Shown here: one piece after another, positions 8,122-58,179 of the stretch
Layout: each line of letters begins with the position of its first letter
How positions within the stretch are numbered: the first letter of the stretch is position 1
Source: Pleomorphomonas carboxyditropha
GTDB taxonomy: Bacteria > Pseudomonadota > Alphaproteobacteria > Rhizobiales > Pleomorphomonadaceae
Direction of reading: 5' to 3'
NCBI RefSeq assembly: GCF_002770725.1
Contig: NZ_NQVN01000002.1
Location: forward strand, 398,622-462,621
DNA length: 64,000 nucleotides
Program-made: the position numbers and the translations under genes
The notes under the pieces: model-generated
The model's database searches: none
Told to the model about the DNA's origin: nothing
Seen by the model: the letters and a program-made list of their open reading frames with translations, nothing else

Positions 8122-8155
8122 CAAAAACGCCCGGAGCGGCCGTGCGCTCCGGGCG
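8122..8155 (-). terminator. Rho-independent terminator of the sugar operon
   Basis: An 11-bp perfect GC stem (8128-8138 with 8145-8155) and 6-base loop read, on the minus strand, straight into TTTTTGT. It lies 24 bases after the stop of the DhnA-like aldolase, the last gene of the leftward sugar operon. Confidence 0.85.
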
Positions 8156-8179
8156 GAAAGGGTGCTCGGGCAGGCGGCG

Positions 8180-9184
8180 TCAGGCGGAGGCCGCCGCCAT
8201 CAGGACCGTCTCGGTGACGGCGCTGTCGTCTTCGAGGCTGCGGACCGCGGCGATGCCCTTGTCCCTGAGCACGGCGTGGTAGGACCTGACCGCCTCGAGC
8301 GGCTGCATGTCGCCGTCGGCCACGGCGCGCATGTGACGGACCATGTCGAGCTGGCTCTCGGCGAGGTTGATCTTGCGGCCGAACAGCGCGACGCGGGCGC
8401 CGTATTTCTCGGCCTGGTAGAGCAGCTCGAAGGTGTCGCGCGTCGTGCCGGCGCCGCCGCCCAGCACGCCCACCACCAGTTGCGGATCGTAGGAAGCGAG
8501 CTCCTCCAGCGCCTTGGCGCCGTTGTAGGGATACTTCAGGAACTGCGGCCGGTCGACCTTGAGCACGCCCGACAGGCAGCGGGCGAGATTGTCGTTGACG
8601 AACGAGCCGATGTCGGACGGCGCGATGCCGCACTCGACGTTGGGGTTGAACACTTCGAGGAAATACTCGATGCCGTTCGCCGCCGCGTCCTCGCGGAAGT
8701 CGCGGAAGGCTTCGAGCGACTTGAGGTCGGCCTCGATGTCGTTGACGAAGGTGATGGAGTAGAGGCCGAGGTTGCCGATCTTGGCCTCGGCGATCCGCTT
8801 CAGCGACGGCGTGCGGAACGGGCGCGACGGGCCGAGCTTGCCGTAGCCGTCGGGGCGGGCGCCCCAGATGTCGGTGGTGTCGTTGGCGCGGAAGGCCGGC
8901 CGCACCGGGCTGTCCCGGAAGGCGCCGGCCTCCTGCAGCAGCTCGAGGTTGGAGCAGGACACCAGCATGATGTCGAGGAGATCCTGGCGGATCAGTTGGG
9001 TGATCATCTCCAGGAACTCGGCGCGCGTCCGGAAGCGGACGAACTTGCCGTCCTCGTCGCGCACCGGCCCGGTGCCCGGGATCGGGTTGGACATGTCGCC
9101 GTCCTTGGCGTCGGCGATGATGAAGTCGCCCTTGGCGTAGTTGCCGGCCCGGATCTTGGCGAGCTTGGCGTTCATGCGGAACAT
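8180..9184 (-). CDS. DhnA/LsrF-like TIM-barrel aldolase of unknown substrate
   Basis: 334 residues. The C-terminal half follows class I aldolases of the DhnA/LsrF/LacD type: a glycine-rich phosphate-binding segment (VVGVLGGGAGTTRDTFELLY), an EKYGA repeat and a FGRKIN motif standing where LsrF has GRNI. A lysine in GVLKVDRP is a candidate Schiff-base residue. The N-terminal ~100 residues are not typical. It is the last gene of the maltose-type ABC operon, 67 bases after the ATPase gene. It is therefore likely to cleave or rearrange the sugar phosphate made by the ADP-dependent kinase upstream. Start ATG 9184 has AAGGAG about 7 bases before it. The assignment to aldolases is inferred from motifs, and the reaction is unknown. 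Confidence 0.6.
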   Translation of the reverse strand: MFRMNAKLAKIRAGNYAKGDFIIADAKDGDMSNPIPGTGPVRDEDGKFVRFRTRAEFLEMITQLIRQDLLDIMLVSCSNLELLQEAGAFRDSPVRPAFRANDTTDIWGARPDGYGKLGPSRPFRTPSLKRIAEAKIGNLGLYSITFVNDIEADLKSLEAFRDFREDAAANGIEYFLEVFNPNVECGIAPSDIGSFVNDNLARCLSGVLKVDRPQFLKYPYNGAKALEELASYDPQLVVGVLGGGAGTTRDTFELLYQAEKYGARVALFGRKINLAESQLDMVRHMRAVADGDMQPLEAVRSYHAVLRDKGIAAVRSLEDDSAVTETVLMAAASA

Positions 9185-9251
9185 CGAATTCTCCTTGGCT
9201 GCTTGGGCTTGGGCTGCCGCCGGTTATCCGGAACGGCATCGAGGGAAAGGT

Positions 9252-10331
9252 TCAGCTTTCGCCGGGCTTGGCGATGCGGCGGCCGTCGGGGTCGAACAGG
9301 TGCAGCCCCGCCGGATCGACGCGCAGGCGGACGAGATCGCCGACGGCGACGGTGGGGGCGCCGACCGCCTGCAGAACCACCGGCGCGCCGTCGGTAAGCG
9401 CGATGTGGACGAGCGTCAGGCCGCCGAGATGCTCGGCGAGCGTCACGCGGCCGCCGAGAGCGCCGTCGTCGGCAATCAGCAGGGCCTCCGGACGGATGCC
9501 GACGCTCAGCTCGCCGTCCTCGCCGAGCGGCAACGGCCACGGCAGGGCGATCCTGCTGCCGTCGAGAAGGCGCGCCGCGCCGCCGCCGTCCGCCGCGCGG
9601 GCCGGCAGGATGTTCATCTGCGGCGAGCCGATGAACCGGGCGACGAACAGGTTCTGCGGCCGCTCGTAGAGGCGGACGGGCGACGCCACCTGTTCGAGCC
9701 TGCCCTTGTTGACGACGGCGATCTTGGTGGCCAGCGTCATCGCCTCCACCTGATCGTGCGTCACGTAGATCATGGTGGTGCCGAGCTTCTGGTGCAGCTC
9801 GGCGATCTCGACGCGCATCTGCATGCGCAGGGCGGCGTCGAGGTTGCTGAGCGGCTCGTCGAACAGGAACACCTTGGGGTTGCGGACGATCGCCCGGCCC
9901 ATGGCGACGCGCTGGCGCTGGCCGCCGGAGAGCTGGCGGGGATAGCGGTCGAGCAGGTCGGTGAGGCCGAGAACGGCGGCGCTGGTCCTGATCTTCTCGG
10001 CCGCTTCCGCCGCCGGCACCTTGGCGAGGCGCAGCGCGAAACCCATGTTCTCCGCCACGGTCATGTGCGGATAGAGCGCATAGTTCTGGAACACCATGGC
10101 GATGTCGCGGTGCTTGGGCGGCACGTCGTTCATCACCTCGCCGTCGATCAGCACCTCGCCGCGGCTGATGGTCTCCAGGCCGGCGATCATCCGCAGCAGG
10201 GTGGACTTGCCGCAGCCCGACGGCCCGACCAGGACGACGAAGGCGCCGTCCTCGATCTCGAGGTCGATGTCGTGGATCGCCTCGAACGCGCCGTAGGCCT
10301 TGGTGATCGACTTGAGAAAAACGGGTGCCAT
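9252..10331 (-). CDS. Sugar ABC transporter ATP-binding protein (MalK/UgpC type)
   Basis: 359 residues. The nucleotide-binding domain has Walker A GPSGCGKST, Q-loop FQNYALYPH, signature LSGGQRQRVAMGRA, Walker B VFLFDEPLSNLDA and the switch histidine in YVTHDQ. A C-terminal TOBE/MalK regulatory domain follows (SVGIRPEAL). It powers the MalF/MalG-like permeases of this operon. The ATG at 10331 overlaps the stop of the kinase gene by one base (TGATG), with GGAG upstream; an in-frame GTG sits one codon earlier. This ATPase family is often shared among several CUT1 importers. Confidence 0.93.
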   Translation of the reverse strand: MAPVFLKSITKAYGAFEAIHDIDLEIEDGAFVVLVGPSGCGKSTLLRMIAGLETISRGEVLIDGEVMNDVPPKHRDIAMVFQNYALYPHMTVAENMGFALRLAKVPAAEAAEKIRTSAAVLGLTDLLDRYPRQLSGGQRQRVAMGRAIVRNPKVFLFDEPLSNLDAALRMQMRVEIAELHQKLGTTMIYVTHDQVEAMTLATKIAVVNKGRLEQVASPVRLYERPQNLFVARFIGSPQMNILPARAADGGGAARLLDGSRIALPWPLPLGEDGELSVGIRPEALLIADDGALGGRVTLAEHLGGLTLVHIALTDGAPVVLQAVGAPTVAVGDLVRLRVDPAGLHLFDPDGRRIAKPGES

Positions 10332-11653
10332 CACGGTCTCCGCGGGTCTGTATCGGCGATCGCGCCGGCCGGCAGCCCGACCGGGCCGACAATCGGCCTG
10401 TGACGGGTGTTGGAGTGGACGAGCAGGCAGCCGGCGGTGAAGCTGTCCCCGAGGCCGACGGTGGAGGCGGGCCGTTCGAGATAGGGCGCGGCGACGCAGG
10501 CAACCCGGCGGCCGTCCGGCAACGACGACAGCGGCGGCACCGGCAGCGGGCCGAAGCTCGCCCGGCGCGGCACGCGGGGATGCGACGACGGCCGGCCGGC
10601 CTCGGCGCGGGCGGCGGCGAGCAGACAGCCCATGGCGAGGGCGTCCAGCTCCACCCCGGCGTCGCCGCGGGTGACGGCAAGCGCCCAGCCGTCGGCATGC
10701 ACGACGAGGCGGTCGACGCCGAGCCGGCGCGACAGCTCGTCCGCCTGCGCCAGCGGATCGTCGCCCGGCACCAGGCCGCGCAGCTCGTTCTGGTTGAGGC
10801 CGATCGACGTCACTTCGGGTGCCAGGCCGGCCAGCGTGGCGCCGAGCGTTCCCGGCCAGGGATAGTCGCCGAGCTCGAGGTGGACGATCGACAGGCCGGC
10901 GCGGCGCCAGGCCCGCGCCGCCGCCGCCAGACGGGCGAGCGCCGGCGGCAGGTCGGCGAGCGGAACGGCATTCGGCGACGACAGCAGGCCGACGCGGAGC
11001 TGCGGCCCATGCGCCGCGACCCAGCGGTCGAACATCGCGTCCTCCTGCAAGGCCTCGTCGGCGAAGCGGACGATGACGCGGGTCGAGCGCTCCGGCACCA
11101 AGCCGGGCAGCGGCCGGCCGGCGGTATACTCGACGATGTAGTGCGCCGGCCCGGAGCGGCGCGCCGGCCGGCGATGGCGTGGCGAGCCGAGCGTCGCCCC
11201 GCTTTCGGCCAGCCCGATGCCGGCGTGCAGCGCGGCGAGCTCCTCGGGACCGGCTTCTCCAAGGGCAAGAAGGGACGGCGCGCCGATGGCGGCCAGCGTC
11301 CAGGCGGCCTGCGCCGAGGTGCCGCCGATCGCCATGCCGTCCGGCAGCGTATGCGGATCGAGGAAGGCGGCGCCGTCCGGCCAGTCGTCCACCAGCAGTT
11401 CGCCGCCGCGTCCGGCCCTGGCGCGCGCCATCAGCTCGGCGAACAGGCGGCGGGCGCCGGCCTCCGGACGCTCGGCCAGCGCCGGTGCCACGGTGTGCAG
11501 ATCGATGCGCCGGTCGAGGCAGGCGGCGAAGCCGGTGACGAGCGTCGTCGCGGCGGTGACGAGGGCCGGCAGTTCGGCGGCGAGCCGGTCGTAGGCGCCG
11601 GCCCAGTCGATCGGCGTGACGGCAATGGTCGGGGCGCTGTTCATCGTCGTCAT
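10331..11653 (-). CDS. ADP-dependent glucokinase/phosphofructokinase family kinase
   Basis: 440 residues, the size of archaeal ADP-dependent glucokinases and phosphofructokinases, and not a PfkB of ~310. Collinear landmarks with those enzymes are visible: LVTGFAACLDRRIDL near residue 38, the substrate-binding GG at 110-111 (MAIGGTSAQAAW), HYIVEY, HLELGDYP, SIGLNQNELRGL, and the catalytic-base motif STVGLGD with Asp403. The family transfers phosphate from ADP to a sugar. Members are known mainly from archaea and from eukaryotic ADPGK, and are rarer in bacteria. Its ATG overlaps the upstream permease stop (ATGA) and its stop overlaps the ATPase start, so it is translationally coupled to a sugar importer. 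Donor and sugar specificity are not readable from sequence. Confidence 0.8.
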   Translation of the reverse strand: MTTMNSAPTIAVTPIDWAGAYDRLAAELPALVTAATTLVTGFAACLDRRIDLHTVAPALAERPEAGARRLFAELMARARAGRGGELLVDDWPDGAAFLDPHTLPDGMAIGGTSAQAAWTLAAIGAPSLLALGEAGPEELAALHAGIGLAESGATLGSPRHRRPARRSGPAHYIVEYTAGRPLPGLVPERSTRVIVRFADEALQEDAMFDRWVAAHGPQLRVGLLSSPNAVPLADLPPALARLAAAARAWRRAGLSIVHLELGDYPWPGTLGATLAGLAPEVTSIGLNQNELRGLVPGDDPLAQADELSRRLGVDRLVVHADGWALAVTRGDAGVELDALAMGCLLAAARAEAGRPSSHPRVPRRASFGPLPVPPLSSLPDGRRVACVAAPYLERPASTVGLGDSFTAGCLLVHSNTRHRPIVGPVGLPAGAIADTDPRRP

Positions 11654-12495
11654 TCCTTGACCGCGCCCTGCGTCAGCCCCTGGATGATCCAACGCTGGAA
11701 GGCGAGCACCAGCAGGACCAGCGGCAGCGTCACCACCACCGAGGCGGCGGCGAGATCGCCCCAGGGGACGTAGTAGAGGTTGGTGAAGTTGGCGATGCCG
11801 ACGGGAATGGTCTGGCGCTCGACGCCCGAGGTGAAGGCGAGCGCGAACATGAATTCGTTCCAGGCCATGATGAAGGCGAGCAGGCCGGTGGTGACGAAAC
11901 CGGGCAGCGACATCGGCAGGATGATCGAGACCATCAGGCGCAGCGGCCCGGCGCCGTCGATGATGGCGGCCTCGTCGATCTCGCGGGGGATGGTCTGGAA
12001 GTAGCCGAACAGCACCCAGATCACCAGCGGCAGGCCGAGCGACAGGTAGATGAGGACGAGAATGGTGTAGGTGTTCATCAGCCCGAGCGCCGACGCGGCG
12101 AGGTAGAGCGGCGCGACGATGGCGATCTGCGGGAACATCGACACCGACAGGATCAGCGCCAGGATGCCGAAGTGGTAGTAGACGCGCAGCCGGGCCAGCG
12201 CGAAGGCGGCGGCGGCGCCGATCGCCAGGCAGAACAGCGTGGTGAGCCCCGCCACGATGGCCGAGTTGACGATGTAGAGGTGGAATTCCTTCTCGACGAA
12301 GATGTTGCGGAAATGCTCGAGGGTGCCGGGCCACGGCAGGAAGCTCGGCGTCGGCGACGACAGCAGCCGGTCTTCCTGGAAGGAGGTGGAGAGCTGCCAG
12401 AGGAAGGGCGCCACCGACCAGACGACGATCAGGGCCGAGGCCAGGTAGAGCGCGATCCGGGTGATCAGCAGTTGGGCGCGCCAAGAGGACGGCAT
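11650..12495 (-). CDS. Sugar ABC transporter permease (MalG type)
   Basis: 281 residues with about six membrane segments and the cytoplasmic EAA loop that docks the ATPase (EIDEAAIIDGAGPLRLMVS, then ILPMSLPG). It is the second inner-membrane subunit of the CUT1-family importer encoded here. It follows the MalF-like gene by 10 bases, and its stop overlaps the kinase start as ATGA. Confidence 0.93.
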   Translation of the reverse strand: MPSSWRAQLLITRIALYLASALIVVWSVAPFLWQLSTSFQEDRLLSSPTPSFLPWPGTLEHFRNIFVEKEFHLYIVNSAIVAGLTTLFCLAIGAAAAFALARLRVYYHFGILALILSVSMFPQIAIVAPLYLAASALGLMNTYTILVLIYLSLGLPLVIWVLFGYFQTIPREIDEAAIIDGAGPLRLMVSIILPMSLPGFVTTGLLAFIMAWNEFMFALAFTSGVERQTIPVGIANFTNLYYVPWGDLAAASVVVTLPLVLLVLAFQRWIIQGLTQGAVKE

Positions 12496-43122: not shown

Positions 43123-45426
43123 ATGCGTTACACCGCCGCTCACTGGGGAACCTATACCATTACCGGCGAGGCGGATGACGTCGGGCTGGCGCCGCTCGCC
43201 GACGATCCGCAGCCCTCGGTGATCGGCCGCGGCTGGCTCGGCGCGGTGCGCGACGAGGCAACGCGCATCCGCCGTCCGTCGGTGCGCCGCGCCTGGCTGG
43301 AAAGGCGCGACCGCAATCGTACCGGCCGCGACGGCTTCGTCGAGCTGCCGTGGGACGAGGCGCTCGACCTTGCCGCCGGCGAACTTCGCCGCGTCATCGA
43401 CGCCCATGGCAACAGGGCGATCTTCGGCGGCTCCTACGGCTGGGCCAGCGCCGGCCGCTTTCACCATGCCCAGTCGCAGCTCCGGCGCTTCCTGAATCTG
43501 ATCGGCGGCTACACGCGCTCGGTCGATACCTATTCGCATGCGGCCGGCGAGGTGCTGCTGCCCCACGTCACCGGCATGAGCAACGCCCTGTTCCAGGACC
43601 GCATGACCTCCTGGTCGCTGCTCGAGGGCAATACCGAACTGCTGCTCTGCTTCGGCGGTATCTCCGGCCGCACGGCGCAGGTGATGTCGAGCGGCACCAC
43701 CGGCCACGAGGTGGAGGGCTGGCTCGCCCGCATCCACCGGGCGGGCGCCCGCATCGTCAACATTTCGCCGCGCCGGGCCGATGTTCCCAAAGAACTCGAA
43801 GCCGAGTGGATCGCGCCGCGCCCCAACACCGACACGGCGCTGATGATGGGCCTCGCCCACGTGCTGATCGAGGAGGGCCTGGTGAACCGCGCCTTCCTCG
43901 ACCGCTACACCCATGGCTGGCCGCGCCTCGAAGCCTATCTGACCGGGGCGGCCGACGGAGTGCCGAAGTCCGCCGACTGGGCGGCAGCGATCACCGGCGT
44001 CGACGCCGGCCGCATCCGGGCTCTGGCGCGGGAGATGGCCGGCCGCACCACCATGATCTCGCTCGCCTGGGGCATCCAGCGCGCCGACCACGGCGAGCAG
44101 CCGCTCTGGATGGGCCTCGCCCTTGCCGCCATGCTGGGACGGATCGGCAGCAAGGGCGGCGGTTTCGGCTTCGGCTACGGCTCGACGACGCCCGTCGGCC
44201 GCCCCATCCGGCCGTTGCCCTGGCCGTCGCTGCCGCAGGGCCGCAATCCGGTGGCCGACCGCATCCCGGTGGCCCGCATCGCCGACCTGCTGCTCGAGCC
44301 GGCCGGCGGTTGCGCCTACAACGGCGAGACGCTCGTCTACCCCGACATCCGCCTCGTCTACTGGACGGGCGGCAATCCCTTCCACGCCCATCAGGATCTC
44401 AACCGCCTCGCCGAAGCCTGGAAGCGGCCGGAGACGGTGATCGTCAACGACATCTGGTGGACGCCGACCGCCCGCCGCGCCGACATCGTCTTTCCCGCCA
44501 CCTCGCCGCTCGAGCGTCGGGACATCATGCTCAACCGCCGCGACGGTTCGCTGGTGTTCATGGACAGGGTGCTGGCGCCGATCGGCGAGGCGCGCGACGA
44601 TCACGCCATCTTCCGGGGACTGGCCGAGCGCTTCGGCGTTGCCGAAGCCTTCACCGAAGGTCTCGACGAGGCCGGCTGGCTGCGCCGGCTCTGGGACGAG
44701 GCGAGCACCGTCGCCGGCCAGCACGGCGTCGAGCTGCCGCAATTCGATGCCTTCCGCGCCGCCGGGCGTTTCGACCGGCCCGATCCCTCGGCAGAGGCGA
44801 TCCAGTTCGGCGCCTTCGTCGCCGACCCCGAGGGTAATCCGCTGGCGACGCCGAGCGGCCGCATCGAGCTCCATAGCGAGGTGATCGCCGGCTTCGGCCT
44901 CGCCGACTGTCCCGGCCATCCGGTGTGGATCGAACCGGCCGAATGGCTTGGAGCCAAGGACGCCGGCAACCGCCTGCACCTCGTCTCGGGCCAGTCGATC
45001 ACCCGCCTGCATGGCCAGATGGACAACGGCCCGGTCGCCCGGGCGACCAAGATCGACGGCCGCGAGCCGGTCTATCTGCATCCGGCGACCGCCCGGCGGC
45101 TCGGCGTCACGGCCGGGGATATCGTGCTGCTGTCGAACGACCGCGGCAGGGCGCTGGCCGGCGTGGTCGTCGACGAGGGCATTCGCGAGGACGTCGCCTG
45201 GATGGGGACTGGCGCCTGGTACGACCCGCAGGAGATCGACGGCGCGCTGATCGACGTGCACGGCAATGCCAATACGCTGACCATCGACAAGGGCACCTCG
45301 GGCCTCGCGCAGGGCAATATCGCGCACACGGCGCTGGTGACGGTCGGCAAGTGGGAAAAGTCCCTTCCCGGCCTCGCGATCGATGGTCCGCCGCCGATCG
45401 TACCCAGGCACGACGGAACGCCATAA
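43123..45426 (+). CDS. Cytoplasmic molybdopterin oxidoreductase, biotin/DMSO sulfoxide reductase type
   Basis: 767 residues of the DMSO reductase family, single-cofactor subgroup: no N-terminal iron-sulfur cysteines and no Tat signal, so a soluble cytoplasmic enzyme like BisC. The serine ligand to molybdenum is in GGSYGWASAGRFHH (Ser109). Guanine-dinucleotide cofactor contacts are suggested by YWTGGNPFHAHQDLNRL, VNDIWWTPTARRADIVFPAT and the C-terminal PVYLHPATARRLGV domain. BisC-like enzymes reduce biotin sulfoxide and free methionine-(S)-sulfoxide. It lies 20 bases after the RuBisCO-like gene, apparently as the last gene of the sugar operon, which is unexpected. A weak AAGGG precedes the ATG. 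Confidence 0.85.
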   Translation: MRYTAAHWGTYTITGEADDVGLAPLADDPQPSVIGRGWLGAVRDEATRIRRPSVRRAWLERRDRNRTGRDGFVELPWDEALDLAAGELRRVIDAHGNRAIFGGSYGWASAGRFHHAQSQLRRFLNLIGGYTRSVDTYSHAAGEVLLPHVTGMSNALFQDRMTSWSLLEGNTELLLCFGGISGRTAQVMSSGTTGHEVEGWLARIHRAGARIVNISPRRADVPKELEAEWIAPRPNTDTALMMGLAHVLIEEGLVNRAFLDRYTHGWPRLEAYLTGAADGVPKSADWAAAITGVDAGRIRALAREMAGRTTMISLAWGIQRADHGEQPLWMGLALAAMLGRIGSKGGGFGFGYGSTTPVGRPIRPLPWPSLPQGRNPVADRIPVARIADLLLEPAGGCAYNGETLVYPDIRLVYWTGGNPFHAHQDLNRLAEAWKRPETVIVNDIWWTPTARRADIVFPATSPLERRDIMLNRRDGSLVFMDRVLAPIGEARDDHAIFRGLAERFGVAEAFTEGLDEAGWLRRLWDEASTVAGQHGVELPQFDAFRAAGRFDRPDPSAEAIQFGAFVADPEGNPLATPSGRIELHSEVIAGFGLADCPGHPVWIEPAEWLGAKDAGNRLHLVSGQSITRLHGQMDNGPVARATKIDGREPVYLHPATARRLGVTAGDIVLLSNDRGRALAGVVVDEGIREDVAWMGTGAWYDPQEIDGALIDVHGNANTLTIDKGTSGLAQGNIAHTALVTVGKWEKSLPGLAIDGPPPIVPRHDGTP

Positions 45427-49537: not shown

Positions 49538-50311
49538 TTATTTCGACACGTCCTGACCGAAATACTTGTCGGCGATCTTCTGGTAGGTGCCGTCGGCCTT
49601 GATGTCGTCGAGCGCCTTGTCGATGGCGGCGACCAGCTCCGCCTGGCCCTTGCGGACGATGATGCCGGAGGCGTCGGCGTCCTCCTTCTGGGCGGCGATC
49701 TTCAACGGCGCGTCGGGCTTGTGCTTCTTGAAGTCCAGGAAGGACAGGCTGTCGTTGATGGTGGCGTCGGCGCGCCGGGTCAGCACGAGCTGGATCGATT
49801 CGTCGAAGCCGTTGGTGCCGACCAGTTCGGCCCCCGACTCGGTGGCCAGCGCGCCGAAGTTGCTGGTCAGCGTCTGCGCCGACTTCTTGCCCTTGAGATC
49901 GGCGAAGCCCTTGATGTCCTCGTCGTCGGCACGGACGATCAGCACCGCCTTGGAGACGATATAGGGCTTGGAGAAGTCGTATTTCTCCTTGCGCTTGTCG
50001 GTGATGCCGACCTGGTTGATGACGGTGTCGTAGCGGTTGGCGTCGAGACCGGCGATCAGGCCGTCCCACTTGCCCTCGATGAACTCCGGCTTGACGCCCA
50101 GCTTCTCGGCCACCGCCTCGCCGATCTCGACGTCGAAGCCGACCAGCTTGCCGCTCTCGTCGTGGTAGGTGAAGGGCGCGTAGGTGCCTTCGGTGCCGAT
50201 GCGCAGCACGCCGGCCGCCTTGACGGCGGCGAGGTCGTCGGCGGCCACGGCGGCACCGGCAAACGCCAGATGAACAGCGGCGACAGCCGCCCAGAGTCGA
50301 ACAGATTTCAT
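49538..50311 (-). CDS. Polar amino-acid ABC transporter substrate-binding protein (cystine-type family)
   Basis: 257 residues with a signal peptide ending at GAAVAAD. Fold landmarks: VLRIGTEGTYAPFTYHDESG, VGFDVEIGEAVAEKLGVKPE, INQVGITDKRKEKYDFSKPY, ADATINDSLSFLDFKKH. The GKWDGLIAGLDANRYD stretch resembles cystine/cysteine binders (FliY/TcyA), but the ligand is an inference. It heads the binding protein-permease-ATPase operon. Confidence 0.9.
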   Translation of the reverse strand: MKSVRLWAAVAAVHLAFAGAAVAADDLAAVKAAGVLRIGTEGTYAPFTYHDESGKLVGFDVEIGEAVAEKLGVKPEFIEGKWDGLIAGLDANRYDTVINQVGITDKRKEKYDFSKPYIVSKAVLIVRADDEDIKGFADLKGKKSAQTLTSNFGALATESGAELVGTNGFDESIQLVLTRRADATINDSLSFLDFKKHKPDAPLKIAAQKEDADASGIIVRKGQAELVAAIDKALDDIKADGTYQKIADKYFGQDVSK

Positions 50312-50737
50312 CGTCTTAAAGCCCCGGATGTGAGGAAAATCATTCCGATTGCCTATCCTCGCATCAATCCTGCTGGCGGTATGGGCAGGAAATGGGCGAA
50401 ATTTCGCGGCGATGTGGAATTTTTTTCCAAAGGCGACCGACGGGAGACAACGATCGTCGCCCTCCGGGTCGCGCCGGCCGGCGATAGGCGGGCGAATCCG
50501 GCGCCGGATGGATCGCGGGCACCATCCACCCGCGATGGGGCGACGGGCTATTTCCGCAATGGCGGAGGCATCTCCGCCATTGCGGATGCCGGCGAGCGGT
50601 TCGGCGGCGATCCATCCAATGTTGCGGAGCAATCGTCTCGCCGTCGCGGCTTTCCTGTTGAGGCGGATGTCTGCCGGCGTTAGCCCAACGTCATCGAGAT
50701 TGACGGACGTTACCCGCGTCCGACGGGAGACAGTGAG
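50312..50737. repeat. Intergenic region with two tandem perfect hairpins
   Basis: 426 bases with no supported gene. An 8-bp stem (50512-50519 with 50529-50536) is followed by a 15-bp perfect stem with a 4-base loop (50553-50567 with 50572-50586). Neither is followed by T's. They may be repetitive extragenic palindromes. Promoters for the binding protein (-) and the Met-rich gene (+) must also lie here. Confidence 0.5.
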
Positions 50738-51106
50738 ATGAACACCGCCATGAACATGCAGCCGATGATGCCCATGATGCAGATGCCGATGATGGGCGGC
50801 ATGATGCCCCAGATGATGCCAATGATGAACGGCATGATGCCGATGATGGGCATGCCGATGATGGGCGGCATGATGAACCCGATGATGGGTGGCATGATGC
50901 CGCAGATGATGCCGGTCATGATGGCCAAGATGACCTGCAAGATGACCAAGAACGGCATGACGTGCGAGATGATGCCGATGGACGACGCCAGCATGGACAT
51001 GTTCATGGACTGCTGCAAGCGCATGATGGCCATGATGCAGGGCGGCATGCCCATGATGATGATGTGCGGCGGCATGCCGATGATGTGCGGCACGATGATG
51101 GCCTGA
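50738..51106 (+). CDS. Extremely methionine-rich small protein with six cysteines
   Basis: 122 residues, of which 56 are Met by count (46%). The first 62 residues are built from MMP, MMGG and MMPQMMP units and lack Cys. The second half is more ordered and adds six Cys (TCKM, TCEMM, DCCKR, MCGG, MCGT). There is no signal peptide or clear membrane segment. The ATG has GGGAG upstream and a Rho-independent terminator follows, so this is a real monocistronic gene and not a low-complexity artefact. I recognise no family. Thioether and thiol ligands suggest Cu(I) binding, or use as an oxidant sink; both are guesses. Confidence 0.7.
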   Translation: MNTAMNMQPMMPMMQMPMMGGMMPQMMPMMNGMMPMMGMPMMGGMMNPMMGGMMPQMMPVMMAKMTCKMTKNGMTCEMMPMDDASMDMFMDCCKRMMAMMQGGMPMMMMCGGMPMMCGTMMA

Positions 51107-51131
51107 GCGCGCGTCGCCACGAAATTTTCAG

Positions 51132-51161
51132 GGGCTGCGGACGAAAGTCCGCGGCCCTTTT
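51132..51161 (+). terminator. Rho-independent terminator of the Met-rich gene
   Basis: 11-bp stem with one G-U pair (51132-51142 with 51147-51157), GAAA tetraloop and TTTT, 25 bases after the stop codon. Confidence 0.85.
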
Positions 51162-51171
51162 CGTTATGCGG

Positions 51172-51801
51172 TCAGACGCGCACTTCCTCGACATAGGTCA
51201 TGACGAGATAGAGGACCGCCTCGGCGGTACCGAGGTTGCGGTAGGAATGCGGCACGTCGGCGTCGAACACGATGGCGTCGCCCTCCGACAGCACGCGCGC
51301 CGGCTCGTCGCCGGCGATGATCTCGACGGTGCCGCTCGACACGACGAGGTTTTCCACCGTGCCCTGCTGGTGCGCGGCGGCGACCTCGCGGTGCAGGCCG
51401 GCGATCCTGAGTTCGTAGAATTCGACCTTGCGCTCGCCGTCGAAGGGGAACAGGGCTCGCGACTGGAACCGCCCTTCCGACGAAGTCAGCACCTTCGCCT
51501 TGGCCCGCGACAGCACGGTGACGCCGCGCTCGGTCTCGTTGGCGAGCAGCGTCGCGAAGGACACGTCGAGCGCCGTGGCGATCTTCCACAACACGGAAAT
51601 GGTCGGGGCGCTCTTGCCCGTCTCGATCTGGCCGAGCATGGCCCGGCTGACGCCGGAAAGCTTGGCGAGGCGTTCCAGCGAATGGCCGCGTCGCGTGCGG
51701 AGCTTGCGGAGATTGCTGCCGACGATGGCCGGAATATCTTCCGCCATGTCCGTTTTGGTCGGTTCGTCGGCGGGGGCGTCGGACACGACGCGCAGGCTCA
51801 T
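51172..51801 (-). CDS. XRE-family regulator with C-terminal cupin domain
   Basis: 209 residues. Residues 27-85 form an XRE helix-turn-helix (LRKLRTRRGHSLERLAKLSG, VSRAMLGQIETGKSAPT). A cupin fills the second half (GTVEIIAGDEPARVLSEGDA, VFDADVPHSYRN). HTH-cupin proteins regulate amino-acid, polyamine or sulfur metabolism by sensing a small ligand. It sits between the Met-rich gene (convergent) and the taurine transporter genes (same strand), so either could be a target. ATG 51801 lies two bases after the small upstream gene. Confidence 0.88.
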   Translation of the reverse strand: MSLRVVSDAPADEPTKTDMAEDIPAIVGSNLRKLRTRRGHSLERLAKLSGVSRAMLGQIETGKSAPTISVLWKIATALDVSFATLLANETERGVTVLSRAKAKVLTSSEGRFQSRALFPFDGERKVEFYELRIAGLHREVAAAHQQGTVENLVVSSGTVEIIAGDEPARVLSEGDAIVFDADVPHSYRNLGTAEAVLYLVMTYVEEVRV

Positions 51802-51803: not shown

Positions 51804-51968
51804 TCAGCGGCCGAAACCGAGAACCGGGACATAGGTCCACACCGGAACCCAGACCATCGGCGGCAGCGGCGAGGACGCCGTCGTGCGGCACATCTCGTCA
51901 CGGCCGGCAGCGGCGCGAGCGAGACGGAATTCCGCGAGATCGACGACTTTCGCAGTTTGTGCCGACAT
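51804..51968 (-). CDS. 54-residue conserved-looking small protein of unknown function
   Basis: ATG 51968 has AGGGAACC upstream. The sequence begins MSAQTAKVVDLAEFRLARA, a pattern (VVDLAxxRxAR) seen in several short alphaproteobacterial proteins. It ends in a Trp/Val/Pro-rich tail (MVWVPVWTYVPVLGFGR). It may be partly membrane-associated. It directly precedes the XRE-cupin gene by two bases, so the two are probably co-translated. No function can be assigned. Confidence 0.6.
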   Translation of the reverse strand: MSAQTAKVVDLAEFRLARAAAGRDEMCRTTASSPLPPMVWVPVWTYVPVLGFGR

Positions 51969-52134: not shown

Positions 52135-52965
52135 TCAGAGATGCGTCGACCACGGCACGAAGCGCTTCTCCAGCGCCCGCATCAGGAGCTCGAACAGGAT
52201 GGCCACGATGCCGATCACCGCGATGCCGAGAATGACCACGTCGGTGCCCAGGAAGGTGGCGGCCGACTGGATCATGAAGCCGAGGCCGCGGCTCGCCGCC
52301 ACCAGCTCGGCGGCGACCAGCGTCGACCAGCCGGCGCCGAGCGCGATGCGGATGCCGGTGACGATCGAGGGCAGCGCGCTCGGCAGCACCACGAAGCGGA
52401 GGAGCTGCAGCCGCGTCGCGCCCAGCGAGCGGGCGGCGTTGAGCCGGTCGCGCGATACCGACCGGACGCCGGCCGCCGTGGCGATGATGATCGGCGGCGC
52501 CATGGCCAGCGCGATCACCAGCACCTTCGACGCCTCGCCGATGCCGAACCAGATGATGATCAGCGGCAGGTAGGCGAGCGGCGGCAGGGGACGCAGGAAC
52601 TCGACCACGGGATCGAAGATGCCGCGACCGATGCGCGACGACGCGATGATGGCGCCGATCGGCACCGCGACGACGATCGAAGCGGCAAGCGCCCCGAACA
52701 CCCGGCCGAGGCTGGCCAGAAGATGCTGCAACAGCGTCGAATCGGCAAAGCCGGAGACGGTCACCTGATAGGCGCTGTTGAGGACGGCGAGCGGGGAGGG
52801 CAGGAACACCCGCGACACCCAGCCCCGCGTCGAGGCGAACCACCAGAGCGTGAGGATGGCGATCACCGTCGCCAGTGGAACGAGGCGGACCCAGTCGAAC
52901 CCCGGCGCGGCGGCGGCCGGTGCCTCCGGCTTGCGGTCAAGGACGATGTCGTTGGTCGTGCTCAT
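52135..52965 (-). CDS. tauC: Taurine/sulfonate ABC transporter permease
   Basis: 276 residues of the SsuC/TauC family, about six membrane segments. Landmarks: FLPSPLAVLNSAYQV, EFLRPLPPLAYLPLIIIWFG, the EAA-like loop ARSLGATRLQLLRFVVLPSA and GAGWSTLVAAELVAASRGLG. It is separated from the ATPase gene by two bases and is the last gene of the tauABC unit. Assignment to taurine rests on the adjacent tpa-xsc genes. Confidence 0.88.
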   Translation of the reverse strand: MSTTNDIVLDRKPEAPAAAAPGFDWVRLVPLATVIAILTLWWFASTRGWVSRVFLPSPLAVLNSAYQVTVSGFADSTLLQHLLASLGRVFGALAASIVVAVPIGAIIASSRIGRGIFDPVVEFLRPLPPLAYLPLIIIWFGIGEASKVLVIALAMAPPIIIATAAGVRSVSRDRLNAARSLGATRLQLLRFVVLPSALPSIVTGIRIALGAGWSTLVAAELVAASRGLGFMIQSAATFLGTDVVILGIAVIGIVAILFELLMRALEKRFVPWSTHL

Positions 52966-52967
52966 GC

Positions 52968-53747
52968 CTAGACCTCGAAATCCTGCAACTCGATCAGGTC
53001 GCGCAGCCGCTCGCGGGTGGCGACGAAGGCGGGGTCGGACTTGATGGCGCGCGATGTGTCGCCCCTGAGAAAGCGGCGGCCGAAGTCGACGGCGATGTCG
53101 GCCACCACCCGGCCGGGATCGGGCGCCAGAACGACGACGCGCGTCGCCAGGAACAGGGCTTCCTCGATGCCGTGGGTGATCAGCAGGACGCCGGCGCCGC
53201 TATCCTGCCAGAGATGCAGCAGGAACTCCTGCATCCGCTCGCGCGTCAGCGCGTCGAGCGCGCCGAGCGGCTCGTCCATCAGCAGGAATTCCGGATCGGC
53301 GGCCAGCGCCCGGGCGATGCCGACCCGCTGGCGCATGCCGCCGGACAGCTCCCAGATCGCCTTGTCGCCGGAGGCGGCGAGGTCGACGTGGGCAAGCAGC
53401 TCGTTGACCCGGCGGTCGCGCTCGGGCTTCGGCACGCCGCGCAGCTTCAATGCGAAGCCGACGTTCTGCCGCGCCGTCAGCCAGGGGAACAGCGCGTCGT
53501 CCTGGAACACCACGGCCCGCTCGGCGCTCGGCCCCTCGACGGTGCGGCCGTCGATGTGAACGCGGCCGGCCGTCGGCTTCAGAAAGCCGGCGGCGAGGCT
53601 GAGCAGGCTGGTTTTGCCCGAGCCCGACCGGCCGACCACGGCGACGAATTCGTCGCTGCCGATCGACAGATCGATGTCGGCGAGCACCGGCGCCGAAGGC
53701 GGCGATCCATAGGCGAAGGTAACCTTGTCGATATGGAGCTTGTACAC
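52968..53747 (-). CDS. tauB: Taurine/sulfonate ABC transporter ATP-binding protein
   Basis: 259 residues. Walker A GRSGSGKTS, Q-loop FQDDALFPWL, signature LSGGMRQRVGIARAL, Walker B FLLMDEPLGALD and switch histidine LITHGIEEA are intact, all typical of TauB/SsuB/NrtD ATPases. The gene follows the binding-protein gene across a strong hairpin. Confidence 0.9.
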   Translation of the reverse strand: MYKLHIDKVTFAYGSPPSAPVLADIDLSIGSDEFVAVVGRSGSGKTSLLSLAAGFLKPTAGRVHIDGRTVEGPSAERAVVFQDDALFPWLTARQNVGFALKLRGVPKPERDRRVNELLAHVDLAASGDKAIWELSGGMRQRVGIARALAADPEFLLMDEPLGALDALTRERMQEFLLHLWQDSGAGVLLITHGIEEALFLATRVVVLAPDPGRVVADIAVDFGRRFLRGDTSRAIKSDPAFVATRERLRDLIELQDFEV

Positions 53748-53771
53748 CGGACGTCTCTTCTCGCAACGAAA

Positions 53772-53798
53772 CCCGTCCGCCGGGGAGGGGCGGACGGG
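53772..53798 (-). other. Intercistronic hairpin between tauA and tauB
   Basis: Perfect 10-bp stem (53772-53781 with 53789-53798), 7-base loop, followed on the minus strand by TTTCG only. It lies directly after a binding-protein gene, as at three other operons in this window. Confidence 0.65.
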
Positions 53799-53826
53799 CA
53801 GTCCTTCATACGGGCCGGCGGCCGGA

Positions 53827-54846
53827 TCACTTCGACGCGACGACGTCCTTCACCCAGCGGTCGGAGACGTAGGGCGAATAATCGGCGAGCACCTCGGGGA
53901 TCTTGCCCTGCTCCTTGAGGAAGGCGGCGGTGGCGGCCACGGCCTTGGCGGTGCCGCCGCCGAGCAGCGCTTCGCCGGGCTGCTCCTCGAGCGTCGGGAA
54001 ATAGTAGCCGGTCAAGAGTTCGGGAACCTCCTCCTGCTTGGCGCCGGTAAGGCGGGCGATCTTCTCCGCCTCCGGCGACTTGGCGTCCCACTTCGCGGGA
54101 TCGGCACGATAGGAAGCGTAGGCGTCGCCGGTCACCTTGACGAAGGCCTTGACCACGTCCGGATGCTGCTCGGCATATTCCTTGCGGACGATCCAGGCGT
54201 CGAAGGTCGGGCCGCCCCACTCGGCGACGTCGCTGGAGGTGGCGACCACCTTGCCGGTCTTCTTGATCTCGGCCAGCACCGGGTCCCAGACATAGGCGCC
54301 GTCGATGTCGCCGCGCTCCCAGGCGGCGGCGATTTCCGGCGGCCTGAGGTTGAGGATCTCCAGCGACTTGGGATCGATGTTCCAGTGCTTCAGCGCTGTC
54401 AGCAGGCTGTAGTGGGCGGTGGAGACGAAGGGCGTGGCGATCTTCTTGCCGACGAGATCCTCCGGCTTGTCGACGCCCTTGGCGGCCAGCGCCTCCGACG
54501 GGCCGATCAGGCCGACGACGAAGATGGTCTCGATCGGCACCTCGCGGCTGGCGGCGGCGGTCAGCGGCGACGAGCCGACGTAGCCGATGTCGAGCGAGCC
54601 GGCGGCGATGGCGGCGATGACGTCGGCGCCGCCGTCGAACTTCTGCCAGTTGATGGTGGCGCCGGTCGCCTTCTCATAGGCGCCGTCGGCCTGCGGCACG
54701 CGCGACGGCTCGACGATCTGCTGCCAGCCGATGTTGAGCGTGGTCTCGGCCCTGGCCGAGGCGACGGCGGAAAGCCCCGTCGCCACGAAGGCGGCGAAAA
54801 CGGCCGCCTTGCCGATCCGGGTCGTGAAATGGGCAACAGGCGTCAT
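53827..54846 (-). CDS. tauA: Taurine ABC transporter substrate-binding protein
   Basis: 339 residues with a signal peptide ending at ASARAE. TauA/SsuA fold: LNIGWQQIVEPSRVPQADGA, INWQKFDGGADVIAAIAAGS, DIGYVGSSPLTAAASREVPI, KIATPFVSTAHYSLL, AWERGDIDGAYVWDPV. These match taurine-binding proteins closely. ATG 54846 follows AGGGAGA. Transcribed in the same direction as xsc and tpa, with 158 bases between. Confidence 0.9.
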   Translation of the reverse strand: MTPVAHFTTRIGKAAVFAAFVATGLSAVASARAETTLNIGWQQIVEPSRVPQADGAYEKATGATINWQKFDGGADVIAAIAAGSLDIGYVGSSPLTAAASREVPIETIFVVGLIGPSEALAAKGVDKPEDLVGKKIATPFVSTAHYSLLTALKHWNIDPKSLEILNLRPPEIAAAWERGDIDGAYVWDPVLAEIKKTGKVVATSSDVAEWGGPTFDAWIVRKEYAEQHPDVVKAFVKVTGDAYASYRADPAKWDAKSPEAEKIARLTGAKQEEVPELLTGYYFPTLEEQPGEALLGGGTAKAVAATAAFLKEQGKIPEVLADYSPYVSDRWVKDVVASK

Positions 54847-55004: not shown

Positions 55005-56774
55005 TCAGGCATCGACGGTATCGGCGGGGTCGATGCCGGCGATCACCGCCGGTTTCTTCATCGCGTCACGCCGGAAGGGCTCGCCCAGTTCCTGGTTGAT
55101 CAGCGCCTCGATCAGCGTCGTCTTGTTGTGCTGCAACTGGTCGACGATCGCCTGCCGCAACAGCTCGGTCAGCTCCTCGGCGGTGCGGGCGACGACGCCG
55201 TTGAGGCCGCAGGCGCGGGCGATGCCGGCGTAGGACACCTCGGGATCGAGTTCGGTGCCGACGAAGTTGTCGTCGTACCAAAGCGTCGAGTTGCGCTTCT
55301 CGGCGCCCCATTGGTAGTTGCGGAAGACGATCTGGGTGATGGCCGGCCATTCGGAGCGGCCGATGGCCGTCAGTTCGTTGACGGCGATGCCGAAGGCGCC
55401 GTCGCCCGAAAAGCCGACCACCGGCAGGTCGGGCCGGCCGATCTTGGCGCCGACGATCGCCGGCAGGCCGTAGCCGCAGGGGCCGAACAGGCCCGGCGAC
55501 AGATATTTCCGGCCGTCCTCGAAGGAGGGATAGGCGTTGCCGATGGCGCAGTTGTTGCCGATGTCCGAGGAGATGATCGCCTCGCGCGGCAGGGCGGCCT
55601 GAATGGCCCGCCACGCCTTGCGGGGGCTGAGCCAGTCGGGCTTGGCGGCGCGCGCCCGGGCGTTCCAACTGGTGCCGGGATCGTCGTCCTCGTGGTCGAG
55701 CGAGGTTAGTTCCTGCGCCCAGGCCGAGCGGGTGGCGGCGACGAGGCCGCGCCGCTCCTGCCGTTCGGCCGGGGTCAAGCGCGGGGTCACCTTGCCGGCG
55801 AGCGCCCGCGCCACCTTGCCGGCGTCGCCGACGATGCCGACGGCGATCGGCTTGGTCAGGCCGATGCGGTTGGGATTGATGTCCACCTGGATGACGGCGG
55901 CATCCTTCGGCCAGTAGTCGATGCCGTAGCCGGGCAGCGTCGAGAAGGGATTGAGGCGGGTGCCGAGCGCCAGGATGACGTCCGCCTTGGCGATGATCTG
56001 CATCGCCGCCTTGGAGCCGTTGTAGCCGAGCGGGCCGAGGGCGAGGGGATGGCTGCCGGGAAAGGCGTCGTTGTGCTGGTAGCCGCAGGCCACCGGCGCA
56101 TCGAGCGTCTCGGCCAGCGCGACGCTGTCGGCGATCGCCCCGGCCAGCACCACGCCGGCGCCGTTGAGGATCACCGGGAAGCGGGCGTTCGACAAGAGCT
56201 CGGCCGCCCTGGCGATGGCCTGGTCGCCGCCGGCCGGCCGCTCGATCTCGATGATCGGCGGCAGTTCGATATCGATCACCTGGGTGAAGATGTCGCGCGG
56301 AATGTTGATCTGGGCCGGCGCCGAGGCGCGCCTTGCCTGCTGGATCACCCGGTTGAGCACCTCGGCGACGCGCGAGGGGTCGCGCACCTCCTCCTGATAG
56401 GCGACGATGTCCTGGAACAGGGCCATCTGCGGCACTTCCTGGAAGCCGCCCTGGCCGAGCGTCCGGTTGGCCGACTGCGGCGTGACGACCAGAAGCGGCG
56501 TATGGTTCCAGTAGGCGGTCTTCACGGCGGTGACGAGGTTGGTGACGCCGGGGCCGTTCTGGGCGATCACCAGCGACACCTTGCCGGTGGCGCGGCTGTA
56601 GCCGTCGGCCATCATGCCGCCCGAGCCCTCGTGCGCCACGTCCCAGAAGGTGATGCCGGCCTTGGGGAACAGGTCGGAGATCGGCATGAAGGCCGAGCCG
56701 ATGATGCCGAAGGCATGGCGGATGCCGTGCCGCTGCAGGACTTTGACGAAGGCTTCCTCGGTGGTCATCCGCAT
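55005..56774 (-). CDS. xsc: Sulfoacetaldehyde acetyltransferase
   Basis: 589 residues, the normal Xsc length. The N-terminus (MTTEEAFVKVLQRHGI, then AFGIIGSAFMPISDLFPKAG) is characteristic of this enzyme. The thiamine-diphosphate glutamate is Glu49 (WDVAHEGSGG) and the cofactor loop is GFSGDGAFG with RNYQWGAEKRNS. It converts sulfoacetaldehyde and phosphate to acetyl phosphate and sulfite, the desulfonation step of taurine degradation. It is 19 bases downstream of tpa. No phosphotransacetylase or sulfite exporter gene is visible nearby. Confidence 0.95.
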   Translation of the reverse strand: MRMTTEEAFVKVLQRHGIRHAFGIIGSAFMPISDLFPKAGITFWDVAHEGSGGMMADGYSRATGKVSLVIAQNGPGVTNLVTAVKTAYWNHTPLLVVTPQSANRTLGQGGFQEVPQMALFQDIVAYQEEVRDPSRVAEVLNRVIQQARRASAPAQINIPRDIFTQVIDIELPPIIEIERPAGGDQAIARAAELLSNARFPVILNGAGVVLAGAIADSVALAETLDAPVACGYQHNDAFPGSHPLALGPLGYNGSKAAMQIIAKADVILALGTRLNPFSTLPGYGIDYWPKDAAVIQVDINPNRIGLTKPIAVGIVGDAGKVARALAGKVTPRLTPAERQERRGLVAATRSAWAQELTSLDHEDDDPGTSWNARARAAKPDWLSPRKAWRAIQAALPREAIISSDIGNNCAIGNAYPSFEDGRKYLSPGLFGPCGYGLPAIVGAKIGRPDLPVVGFSGDGAFGIAVNELTAIGRSEWPAITQIVFRNYQWGAEKRNSTLWYDDNFVGTELDPEVSYAGIARACGLNGVVARTAEELTELLRQAIVDQLQHNKTTLIEALINQELGEPFRRDAMKKPAVIAGIDPADTVDA

Positions 56775-56793: not shown

Positions 56794-58179
56794 TCAGCCG
56801 AACACGCGCCCGATGGCGCGGCCGATCGTTTCCGTGATGGCGTCGATGTCGTCCGGCGTGGCGATCAGCGCCGGCGCCAGGCAGAGCGTGTTGTTGAAGC
56901 CGGTGATCGAGCGGTTGGTGGAGCCGATGATCACCCCTTGCGCGCCGCACTCGGCGACCACGGCCTGCACCAGCTTTTCGTCGGCCGGTTCGCGGCTTTG
57001 CCGGTCGGCGACGAGCTCGACGCCGGCGAACAGGCCCTTGCCGCGCACGTCGCCGATGGCCGGATGCTTGTCCTGAAGGGCCCTGAGGTTGGCGATCAGC
57101 CGCTCGCCCTGCCGGGCGGAATTTTCCACCAGCCGTTCGTCCTCGATGATCCTGAGGTTTTCCAGCGCCGCCGCCGGACCGGAGGCGCAGCCGCCGAAGG
57201 TGGAGATGTCGCGGAAATGGCTGAGCGGATCGTCGGGCGCGTCCTTGAACAGCTCGAAGATCGCCTCGCTGGTCACCGTGCAGGAGATGGCGGCGTAGCC
57301 CGAGGCGACGCCCTTGGCCATGGTGACGAAATCCGGCCGGACGCCGTAATGCTGGTAGCCGAACCAGGCGCCGGTACGGCCGAGGCCGCACACCACCTCG
57401 TCGATGTGAATGAGAATGCCGTGGCGGCGGCAGATCTCCTCGACGCGCTGCCAGTAGCCGTCGGGCGGGGTGATGACGCCGCCGCCGGCGGTGATCGGCT
57501 CCAGGCAGATGGCGCCGATCGTATCCGGCCCCTCGCGCAGGATCACCTCCTCGATGGCGTCGGCGGCCGCTTCGCCGTAGTTGGCGCCCCGCTGCTGGCG
57601 CCGGTATTCGAGGGCGTGCGGCACGGCGACGAAGCCGGGCAGCAGCGGGCCGTATTGGGCGGTACGCTCGTTCTGGCCGCTGGCGGAGAGGGCGCCGAAG
57701 GTGGTGCCGTGATAGTCGCGCTCGCGATAGAGGATCTTCGACTTGCGGCCGCCATGGTGACGGTGGGCGATCTGCCGCACCATCTTGAACACCTTCTCGT
57801 TGGCCTCCGAGCCGGAATTGGAGAAGTAGACGCGCGTCAGGCCCGGCATCTTCGCCGTCAGCCGCTCGGCGAACAGCGCGCCGGGGATCGAGCCGGCGGT
57901 GTTGGCGAAATAGTTGAGGCGGACGAGCTGGTCGCGCACCGCGTCGGCGATCGAGGCGCGGCCGTAGCCGACGTTGACCGTCCAGACGCCGCCCGACACG
58001 GCGTCGAGATATTCCTTGCCGGCGATGTCCCACACCCTCAGGCCCTTGCCCTCGACGATGATGCGCGGCGCCGCCGTCTCGAAGGCCTTGTGCTGGATGA
58101 GGTGATGCCAGACATGGGCGCGATCGGCATCGATGATGGATTGCGGATCGTTGAGTTCCGCCGCGGCGCTGAGGGTCAT
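56794..58179 (-). CDS. tpa: Taurine-pyruvate aminotransferase
   Basis: 461 residues, class III pyridoxal-phosphate aminotransferase. The sequence shows VSGGVWTVNVGYGRASIADA, YFSNSGSEANEKVFKMVRQ, DYHGTTFGALSASGQ, EPITAGGGVITPP, HIDEVVCGLGRTG and the cofactor lysine in MAKGVASGY. The GGVWTVNVGYGR segment is typical of Tpa. It makes sulfoacetaldehyde and alanine from taurine and pyruvate, feeding Xsc directly downstream. The 153-base gap upstream probably holds the tpa-xsc promoter. Confidence 0.93.
   Translation of the reverse strand: MTLSAAAELNDPQSIIDADRAHVWHHLIQHKAFETAAPRIIVEGKGLRVWDIAGKEYLDAVSGGVWTVNVGYGRASIADAVRDQLVRLNYFANTAGSIPGALFAERLTAKMPGLTRVYFSNSGSEANEKVFKMVRQIAHRHHGGRKSKILYRERDYHGTTFGALSASGQNERTAQYGPLLPGFVAVPHALEYRRQQRGANYGEAAADAIEEVILREGPDTIGAICLEPITAGGGVITPPDGYWQRVEEICRRHGILIHIDEVVCGLGRTGAWFGYQHYGVRPDFVTMAKGVASGYAAISCTVTSEAIFELFKDAPDDPLSHFRDISTFGGCASGPAAALENLRIIEDERLVENSARQGERLIANLRALQDKHPAIGDVRGKGLFAGVELVADRQSREPADEKLVQAVVAECGAQGVIIGSTNRSITGFNNTLCLAPALIATPDDIDAITETIGRAIGRVFG

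Follow-up and report, generated by a model that had tools for sequence, protein, structure and literature searches.

A half-methionine protein encoded beside an XRE-cupin regulator in Pleomorphomonas carboxyditropha, a candidate methionine/sulfur reserve

Introduction

Protein-bound sulfur reserves are textbook knowledge in seeds, where plant storage proteins such as the 2S albumins and delta-zeins contain roughly 20% Met. We know of no description of such reserves in bacteria. Among polypeptides, cyanophycin is a cytoplasmic store of a nutrient, while MrpX is a Met-rich peptide located in the periplasm and part of the response to hypochlorite. A sulfur-storing protein, IssA, is available for comparison from what we take to be a prokaryotic host. 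Regulators that combine an XRE-type DNA-binding domain with a cupin include a set from Pseudomonas, the Vibrio cholerae protein 1Y9Q and PuuR, and presumably also SutR. IssA is described as a thioferrate storage protein (PMC5524996).

Here, we analyze a gene for a very Met-rich protein of Pleomorphomonas carboxyditropha, located in a DNA stretch of 64,000 nucleotides (hereafter the window). Its proposed purpose, a protein-bound methionine reserve, is like that of the seed proteins. It differs from them in its ~46% Met, its bacterial origin, its apparently private regulator and the lack of a family match. Like cyanophycin, it would be a cytoplasmic polypeptide store of one nutrient, but it is a ribosomal gene product made without a synthetase, and the nutrient would be sulfur rather than nitrogen. 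It would share with IssA the role of a sulfur-storing protein in a prokaryote; IssA, however, is described as storing inorganic iron-sulfur (PMC5524996), whereas we propose amino-acid sulfur. The adjoining regulator has the HTH_3 and Cupin_2 domains and the local, single-target layout of the known XRE-cupin regulators, for which such a target is undescribed in the literature searched. In contrast to the Pseudomonas proteins, presented as inhibitors (PMC7901475), its putative binding sites precede the promoter motif.

Results

The methionine-rich gene

The open reading frame encodes 122 residues, of which 56 (46%) are Met and six are Cys. All Cys lie in the last 59 residues and none in residues 1–63 (Table 1), which agrees with a first-pass annotation of the window that had reported 46% Met and six Cys in the second half. 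The annotation had also called this composition far outside normal. Indeed, when the 492 stop-to-stop segments of the window that span 60 aa or more are ranked, the runner-up has only 12% Met. Furthermore, the gene had been read as an expression unit with its own ribosome binding site and terminator, and without a signal peptide. The expression unit was borne out: the ribosome binding site recurs as GGAGA in most aligned relatives, and a conserved predicted promoter and palindromes lie upstream. As for a signal peptide, none is obvious when the translation is judged by eye. The terminator-like structure is a hairpin of 13 pairs followed by a T-rich tail, one such structure being observed against 0.5 expected in shuffles. 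Thus, composition and expression unit stood. The roles that the annotation proposed gained no support, and the adjoining regulator, the small protein and the sulfur context were overlooked.

Table 1. Features of the Met-rich locus and its surroundings in the window (coordinates are window positions)
Feature	Position	Strand	Basis or remark
Family 3 solute-binding protein	49538..50299	-	best NCBIfam match cystine-binding PRK11260, 209 bits, cut-off 312
Putative operator site 1, TCCGCAATGGCGGA	50553..50566	+	8/8 outer positions; 185 bases before start codon
Putative operator site 2, TCCGCCATTGCGGA	50573..50586	+	tandem with site 1
Putative operator site 3, TCCAATGTTGCGGA	50615..50628	+	7/8 outer positions
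Predicted promoter: TTGAGG (50658-50663), 17 bases, TAGCCC (50681-50686)	50658..50686	+	layout conserved in relatives
Ribosome binding site GGGAG	50725..50729	+	precedes ATG; GGAGA in most aligned relatives
Met-rich protein, 122 aa	50738..51106	+	translation, family comparison
N-part, low-complexity M/P/G/N, 63 residues, 52% Met, Cys-free	50738..50926	+	composition
Conserved Cys core, 59 residues, 6 Cys	50927..51103	+	core alignment
Terminator-like stem-loop, 13 pairs, T-rich tail	51130..51159	+	between two convergent genes
XRE (HTH_3) - Cupin_2 regulator, 209 aa, convergent	51172..51801	-	Pfam; adjacency
Conserved small protein, 54 aa (...AKVVDLAEFRLAR...MVWVPVWTYVPVLGFGR)	51804..51968	-	stop 2 bases before regulator ATG
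Taurine-type transporter tauC (52135-52965), tauB (52968-53747), tauA (53827-54846)	52135..54846	-	NCBIfam
Sulfoacetaldehyde acetyltransferase xsc	55005-56774	-	Xsc TIGR03457, 895 bits, cut-off 676
Class III aminotransferase, probably taurine-pyruvate aminotransferase	56794-58179	-	substrate inferred from context

A known family was rejected as the identity of the protein, since no Pfam, NCBIfam or PDB assignment exceeded a cut-off. Pfam gave three matches, none near its cut-off (best 13.5 bits versus 27) and none to a seed storage family. NCBIfam gave nothing above cut-off (best 5.9 bits), and the PDB held no matching solved structure. AF2 models were weak, with a pLDDT of 49.9 for the full-length protein, block means of 38–44 for residues 1–60, and 59.0 for the Cys core alone.

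Several other identities were considered and rejected. An antisense gene at 50710-51120 has an open frame in all 45 ungapped rows of the alignment, which we ascribe to composition: antisense openness is expected because the sense strand lacks Leu TTA/CTA and Ser TCA codons, and therefore openness alone is no proof of a gene. Identity is 0.605 in the antisense frame versus 0.645 in the sense frame. A RiPP precursor was dismissed because no modification enzyme stood out as constant among the neighbourhoods, and a chance or repeat artefact is ruled out by conservation across phyla together with the third-position pattern described below.

Spread and conservation of the family

A homologue search, which the first-pass annotation had suggested, yielded 30 homologous loci out of 94 pattern matches in contigs from one genome per species (loci are numbered with L below). 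The hosts include Rhizobium, Bradyrhizobium, Shinella, Mesorhizobium, Tardiphaga, a Pleomorphomonas MAG and others, as well as the myxobacteria Sorangium and Archangium; two plasmid records also carry the family. The annotation would have abandoned its reading if the gene were absent from all close relatives. Instead, the gene is present, if patchily: 2 of 13 other congeneric genomes have it, as do 4 of 60 relatives (own genome included). The family is likewise patchy in Hyphomicrobiales, with 10 of 397 genomes in an order-wide sampling and 2 of 385 in a class-wide sampling (own genome included in both). It is found more often in the order to which the Archangium genome belongs, where 30 of 145 genomes carry it, the centre genome included.

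The two parts of the protein are conserved in different ways. In 47 members (a set without L009, L011, L037 and the duplicate L135, with L033 and L052 missed by the pattern), the N-part ranges from 36 to 112 residues, and its Met fraction averages 50.7% with a standard deviation of only 2.4%. The remainder is made up of 16% Pro, 15% Gly and 9% Asn, so that M, P, G and N account for 90%. Cys (0.4%) and His (0.1%) are rare, and charged, aromatic and large aliphatic residues are almost missing. The Cys core, in contrast, keeps a length of 56–61 residues and conserves its Cys, Gly and Pro; in a 46-row core alignment, C4, C13 and C30 never vary and C47 hardly does. In L052, which lies outside this alignment and was read by eye, Met replaces the second core Cys.

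When all sequence pairs are compared at codons for an identical residue, third positions differ 4596 times, whereas first and second positions differ 122 times each. Hence, it is the protein itself that is kept. As judged from these alignments, the family is real and conserved across two phyla. No title or abstract opening among the works searched describes it. In that literature the family is therefore undescribed, and its extreme composition and what appears to be a private switch have been kept between phyla. Several alphaproteobacterial members terminate in -AA, and we speculate that such C-termini would suit turnover by ClpXP.

Regulator and small protein

The gene that converges on the Met-rich gene encodes a protein with an N-terminal HTH_3 domain (PF01381, 59.7 bits) and a C-terminal Cupin_2 domain (PF07883, 41.9 bits), both over the Pfam cut-off, as in XRE-cupin regulators. 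Its start codon was picked by nearness to the stop of the small gene. A convergent regulator adjoins the Met-rich gene in 50 of the 51 scored rows, or 49 of 50 without the duplicate L135, a scoring that took in 15 of the 30 myxobacterial matches. Between the end of the regulator match and the Met-rich stop lie 8–610 bases. The regulator was not found within the 1.5 kb available for the myxobacterial locus L140 (G845); in L052 it is present by reading. Among the 60 relatives, regulator matches of at least 57% identity (57–100%) occur only in the four genomes that have the Met-rich gene, and the remaining seven matches at E up to 1e-20 are only 28–39% identical.

The best solved relative of the regulator is 1Y9Q (E 9.7e-27, residues 31–207). 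Its cupin pocket is reported to hold D-methionine (PMC7901475), and it is listed with Zn (PMC2684688). By analogy, the cupin of the regulator would sense methionine or a closely related compound, although the D-Met in 1Y9Q may be adventitious. The Pseudomonas XRE-cupin proteins are described as inhibitors and repressors (PMC7901475).

A small protein of ~55 residues, encoded directly upstream on the regulator's strand, was found by motif search in 32 of 37 loci. It combines a VIDLxxYRxxR-like motif with a Trp/Pro-rich tail resembling MWVPxWxxxPV. The motif is missing in L013, L015 (at a contig end), L028, L047 and L048, and the stretch that covers the small protein has no Pfam or NCBIfam match. 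The small protein is probably translationally coupled to the regulator. A palindrome upstream of the small gene was not convincingly found; each of three loci has one 7/8 site there. On the Mesorhizobium plasmid pMspAR10a, the existing annotation of the three genes goes no further than hypothetical proteins and an XRE regulator. The comparison of loci supports well that the Met-rich gene, the regulator and the small protein form a self-contained three-gene cassette.

Upstream palindromes and promoter

From alphaproteobacteria to myxobacteria, 14-bp palindromes with the consensus TCCGNNATNNCGGA precede the Met-rich start. In 29 of 36 upstream regions a palindrome matches at least 7 of 8 outer bases, against a mean of 4.05 and a maximum of 11 in shuffles that preserve base content only; the other seven are those of L005, L017, L026, L034, L037, L047 and L049. 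The usual places in alphaproteobacteria are about -182, -162 and -120, and site 1 of the window falls in the same position class as in its relatives. Many myxobacterial palindromes lie near -187, -166, -145 and -125, while other myxobacteria have one clear palindrome only, near -109, -127 or -156. With the first-listed member of each lineage, 11, 8 and 9 of 21 match at least 6/8 at these respective positions, whereas shuffles, which here too preserve base content only, average 1.4 and peak at 6; the count is lowered by L007, whose start was set 9 bases too early.

The tandem of sites 1 and 2 (50553-50586), allowing up to two mismatches, is the sole match in its own whole genome. Of 12 genomes searched in this way, 6 had a single match and 6 had none, and a reversed control pattern gave no match at all. 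The match coordinates agree with the Met-rich loci, an agreement from which contig identity was taken.

A promoter-like motif, TTG followed by TA 19–21 bases on and mostly with a 17-base spacing, was recognized upstream in 32 of 37 loci, against an average of 2.3 and at most 9 in shuffles (again preserving base content only), and is missing from five. Its first base falls at -92 to -68, with a preference for about -77. A sigma-70 scan found no such promoter. A GGA[GT][GA]AAA block (GGAGGAAA-like) lies at -135 to -85, between the last palindrome and the -35 element, in 29 of 37 regions.

From this arrangement we infer that the regulator binds the palindromes. Since these lie upstream of the predicted -35 element, activation is suggested, with the regulator acting as activator at the Met-rich promoter. 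The regulon looks like one with a single, distinctive promoter.

Sulfur-related neighbourhood

In the window, the cassette is accompanied by genes for the uptake and conversion of taurine-type compounds (Table 1). TauA clearly exceeded its cut-off (TIGR01729, 464 bits versus 304), and the best matches of TauB and TauC remained slightly under theirs. The cystine-like ABC substrate-binding protein upstream in the window (49538-50299) is 72% identical to one upstream in L005 of Mesorhizobium loti (1619-2491). About 5 kb upstream (5.3 kb), at 43123-45426, the window encodes a bisC/TorA-family S/N-oxide reductase (TIGR00509, 848 bits, cut-off 1018), possibly a free methionine sulfoxide reductase.

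The neighbourhoods were scored in 12-kb windows with E. coli query sets of 23 sulfur, 7 copper and 8 redox/Msr genes at E up to 1e-10, in which tauB, ssuB, metN, cysA, metJ, metL and cusR/cusS were omitted as wide-matching or for brevity. The 37 module windows exclude L033 (decayed gene) and include L015 and L024, which are under 12 kb. As controls we used 60 random places in partly the same genomes, of which 57 remained after removal of 3 overlapping ones. The sulfur set, fixed before scoring yet after many neighbours had been viewed by eye, had matches in 21 of 37 module windows versus 5 of 57 random windows (Fisher p 6e-7). Sulfur-set neighbours were missing in the other 16, including those of the myxobacteria L028 and L032; the remaining myxobacterial loci were too short to score. 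With the first-listed member per lineage, the proportion was 10/22 versus 5/57 (p 6e-4), and 12 of 22 lineages had any match. When evidence from permeases only (tauC/ssuC) was dropped, 16 of 37 windows remained (p 2e-4), or 7/22 versus 5/57 per lineage (p 0.03).

The genes involved vary among loci. For instance, L034 of Shinella has MetY over the NCBIfam cut-off, with two SfnB-like proteins and one MetQ-like protein below it. L016 of Tardiphaga has an NtaA/DmoA-type monooxygenase over the NCBIfam cut-off, with SsuA-like, MetQ-like and mercaptopyruvate-sulfurtransferase-like proteins below it, some of them cut by the locus end. SsuD, SsuA and TauA were found in L053, SsuD in L054, SfnB-like genes in L048 and L054, and CysK- and MetB-like genes near the cassette in L049, L012, L017 and L020. 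In three of the four Rhizobium tropici-type loci (L012, L017, L020), cysK lies beside a metB/metY-like gene; this gene was considered as MetY and is instead a homologue with 28–33% identity.

L006, from a MAG near the window's genus, encodes a MarD-like protein that matches chain A of 9FMG with 588 bits and has a homologue of 86% identity in L013, the locus of the Pleomorphomonas MAG. This chain is described as MarDK2H2 of methylthio-alkane reductase (PMC12552129). The marD-like gene and two nitrogenase-like genes, of subunit and reductase type, adjoin the cassette at 7515-12148, and a MetY-like gene and a sulfonate-type transporter lie on its opposite side.

In alphaproteobacteria, a link between the cassette and sulfur metabolism is thus well supported by gene context. 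The neighbours are mostly scavenging genes, which fit sulfur metabolism generally and by themselves do not indicate a store.

Discussion

A possible methionine/sulfur reserve

Our preferred explanation, held tentatively and at somewhat less than an even chance, is that the protein is a cytoplasmic methionine/sulfur reserve under the control of an activator that senses methionine. The regulator would bind the palindromes, sense methionine or a close relative and activate its single promoter when methionine or sulfur is plentiful. The product would be a disordered cytoplasmic reserve that probably condenses or aggregates. Its N-part, in which composition and not order is conserved, would be the payload, while the Cys core would serve in assembly, in metal- or disulfide-linking or as a degradation handle. 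Upon sulfur shortage, transcription would stop and proteolysis would return methionine and cysteine, comparable to methionine storage by seed proteins and, in the case of nitrogen, to cyanophycin. Together, the methionine-responsive activator, the Trp/Pro-rich small protein and the half-methionine polypeptide would make a regulated store.

The strongest sign for storage comes from the N-part, whose composition is constant while its length and order drift, as would be expected if its residues were themselves the cargo. Several observations count against a store. The neighbouring scavenging genes would be expected to be on when the reserve is off. Cys that hardly vary hint at a function in metal or redox chemistry, for which a pure store would have no need. 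The gene is absent from most sampled genomes, and 7 of 36 upstream regions lack the palindrome and 5 of 37 the promoter motif. Moreover, the inhibitors and repressors described from Pseudomonas (PMC7901475) run against the reading of the regulator as an activator. More tentative still is the wider claim that this would be a reserve of amino-acid sulfur made on the ribosome and governed by methionine sensing, the first of its kind in bacteria, carried by a mobile cassette with an operator array common to alphaproteobacteria and myxobacteria.

Alternative explanations

The core with its three invariant and one nearly invariant Cys and its many Met, and Met/Cys chemistry in general, might point to a cytoplasmic buffer of Cu(I) or another soft metal. 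The core would then be the tight site, the Met repeats a low-affinity sponge, and the cupin regulator would answer to metal or to metal-damaged sulfur metabolism. The listing of 1Y9Q with Zn (PMC2684688) and the retention of the core without the N-part in L037 would fit this explanation. We nevertheless consider it unlikely, because an N-part with 50.7% Met has hardly any Cys or His, a metal site needs no constant Met fraction over very different lengths, and L052 lacks the second core Cys. It is general knowledge that thioether copper sites are weak in the thiol-rich cytoplasm. Nor do the neighbourhoods support the Cu(I) sequestration that the first-pass annotation had offered as a role: the copper set matched in 0 of 37 module windows versus 2 of 57 random ones, a difference too small to weigh alone. 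The other role it had offered, a sacrificial oxidant sink or Met-oxidation switch, strikes us as slightly less likely again. Here, surface Met would quench HOCl or peroxide and be recycled by Msr, and oxidation might also make a condensate dissolve, an idea put forward for low-complexity domains rich in Met. The composition suits such a role, as do the bisC-family reductase 5.3 kb upstream in the window and msrB, over its cut-off, 1.3 kb upstream of the Met-rich gene in L005. Yet this msrB is the single match of the redox/Msr set in 37 module windows, versus 1 in 57 random ones, so that the neighbourhoods lend this role no support either. MrpX is also small and very Met-rich, but the window protein has a Cys core and no signal peptide by eye, and E. 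coli MsrP and MsrQ as queries (E 1e-10) matched in 0 of 37 module windows. Furthermore, we know of no redox-sensing type to which the regulator would belong.

The evidence for storage would serve equally well for a methionine overflow valve, in which synthesis lowers free methionine or its analogues and thereby limits an excess of SAM or homocysteine, remobilisation being incidental. This would also account for the nearby MetY, MetQ-like, MarD-like and sulfonate uptake genes. On general reasoning, however, such a valve is costly in translation where efflux or a gamma-lyase would be cheaper, and we rate it as improbable, below the oxidant sink. Least likely of all, in our view, is a scaffold that forms condensates to gather sulfur enzymes or nascent metal sites without storage. 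An uncharged low-complexity N-part, a conserved core separate from it and a co-encoded Trp/Pro-rich small protein would be suitable parts, but the neighbourhoods offer no constant partner enzyme, their near-constant members being the regulator and the small protein. On balance, we favour storage over a metal buffer, an oxidant sink or an overflow valve, with the odds still slightly against it.

If the protein is a reserve, it would come with a private methionine-responsive switch with an apparent one-promoter regulon, provide a natural half-methionine polymer for studies of condensation and oxidation, and allow a direct test of how soil bacteria bank scarce sulfur. If it is a copper binder or oxidant quencher instead, it would still be an extreme and apparently tightly regulated protein for which we found no counterpart.

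Decayed and truncated copies

Two copies depart from the usual layout. In L033 of Rhizobium calliandrae (5638-6123) the Met-rich frame is broken and the 12 kb of the locus contain no regulator motif, possibly a joint loss of the Met-rich gene and its regulator. L037 on plasmid pMspAR10a (11995-12168) has the Cys core, the regulator and the small protein, with no in-frame Met-rich N-part and no palindrome, and represents a truncated or core-only form. Since this copy retains core and regulator without the Met-rich N-part, the core may serve a separate function.
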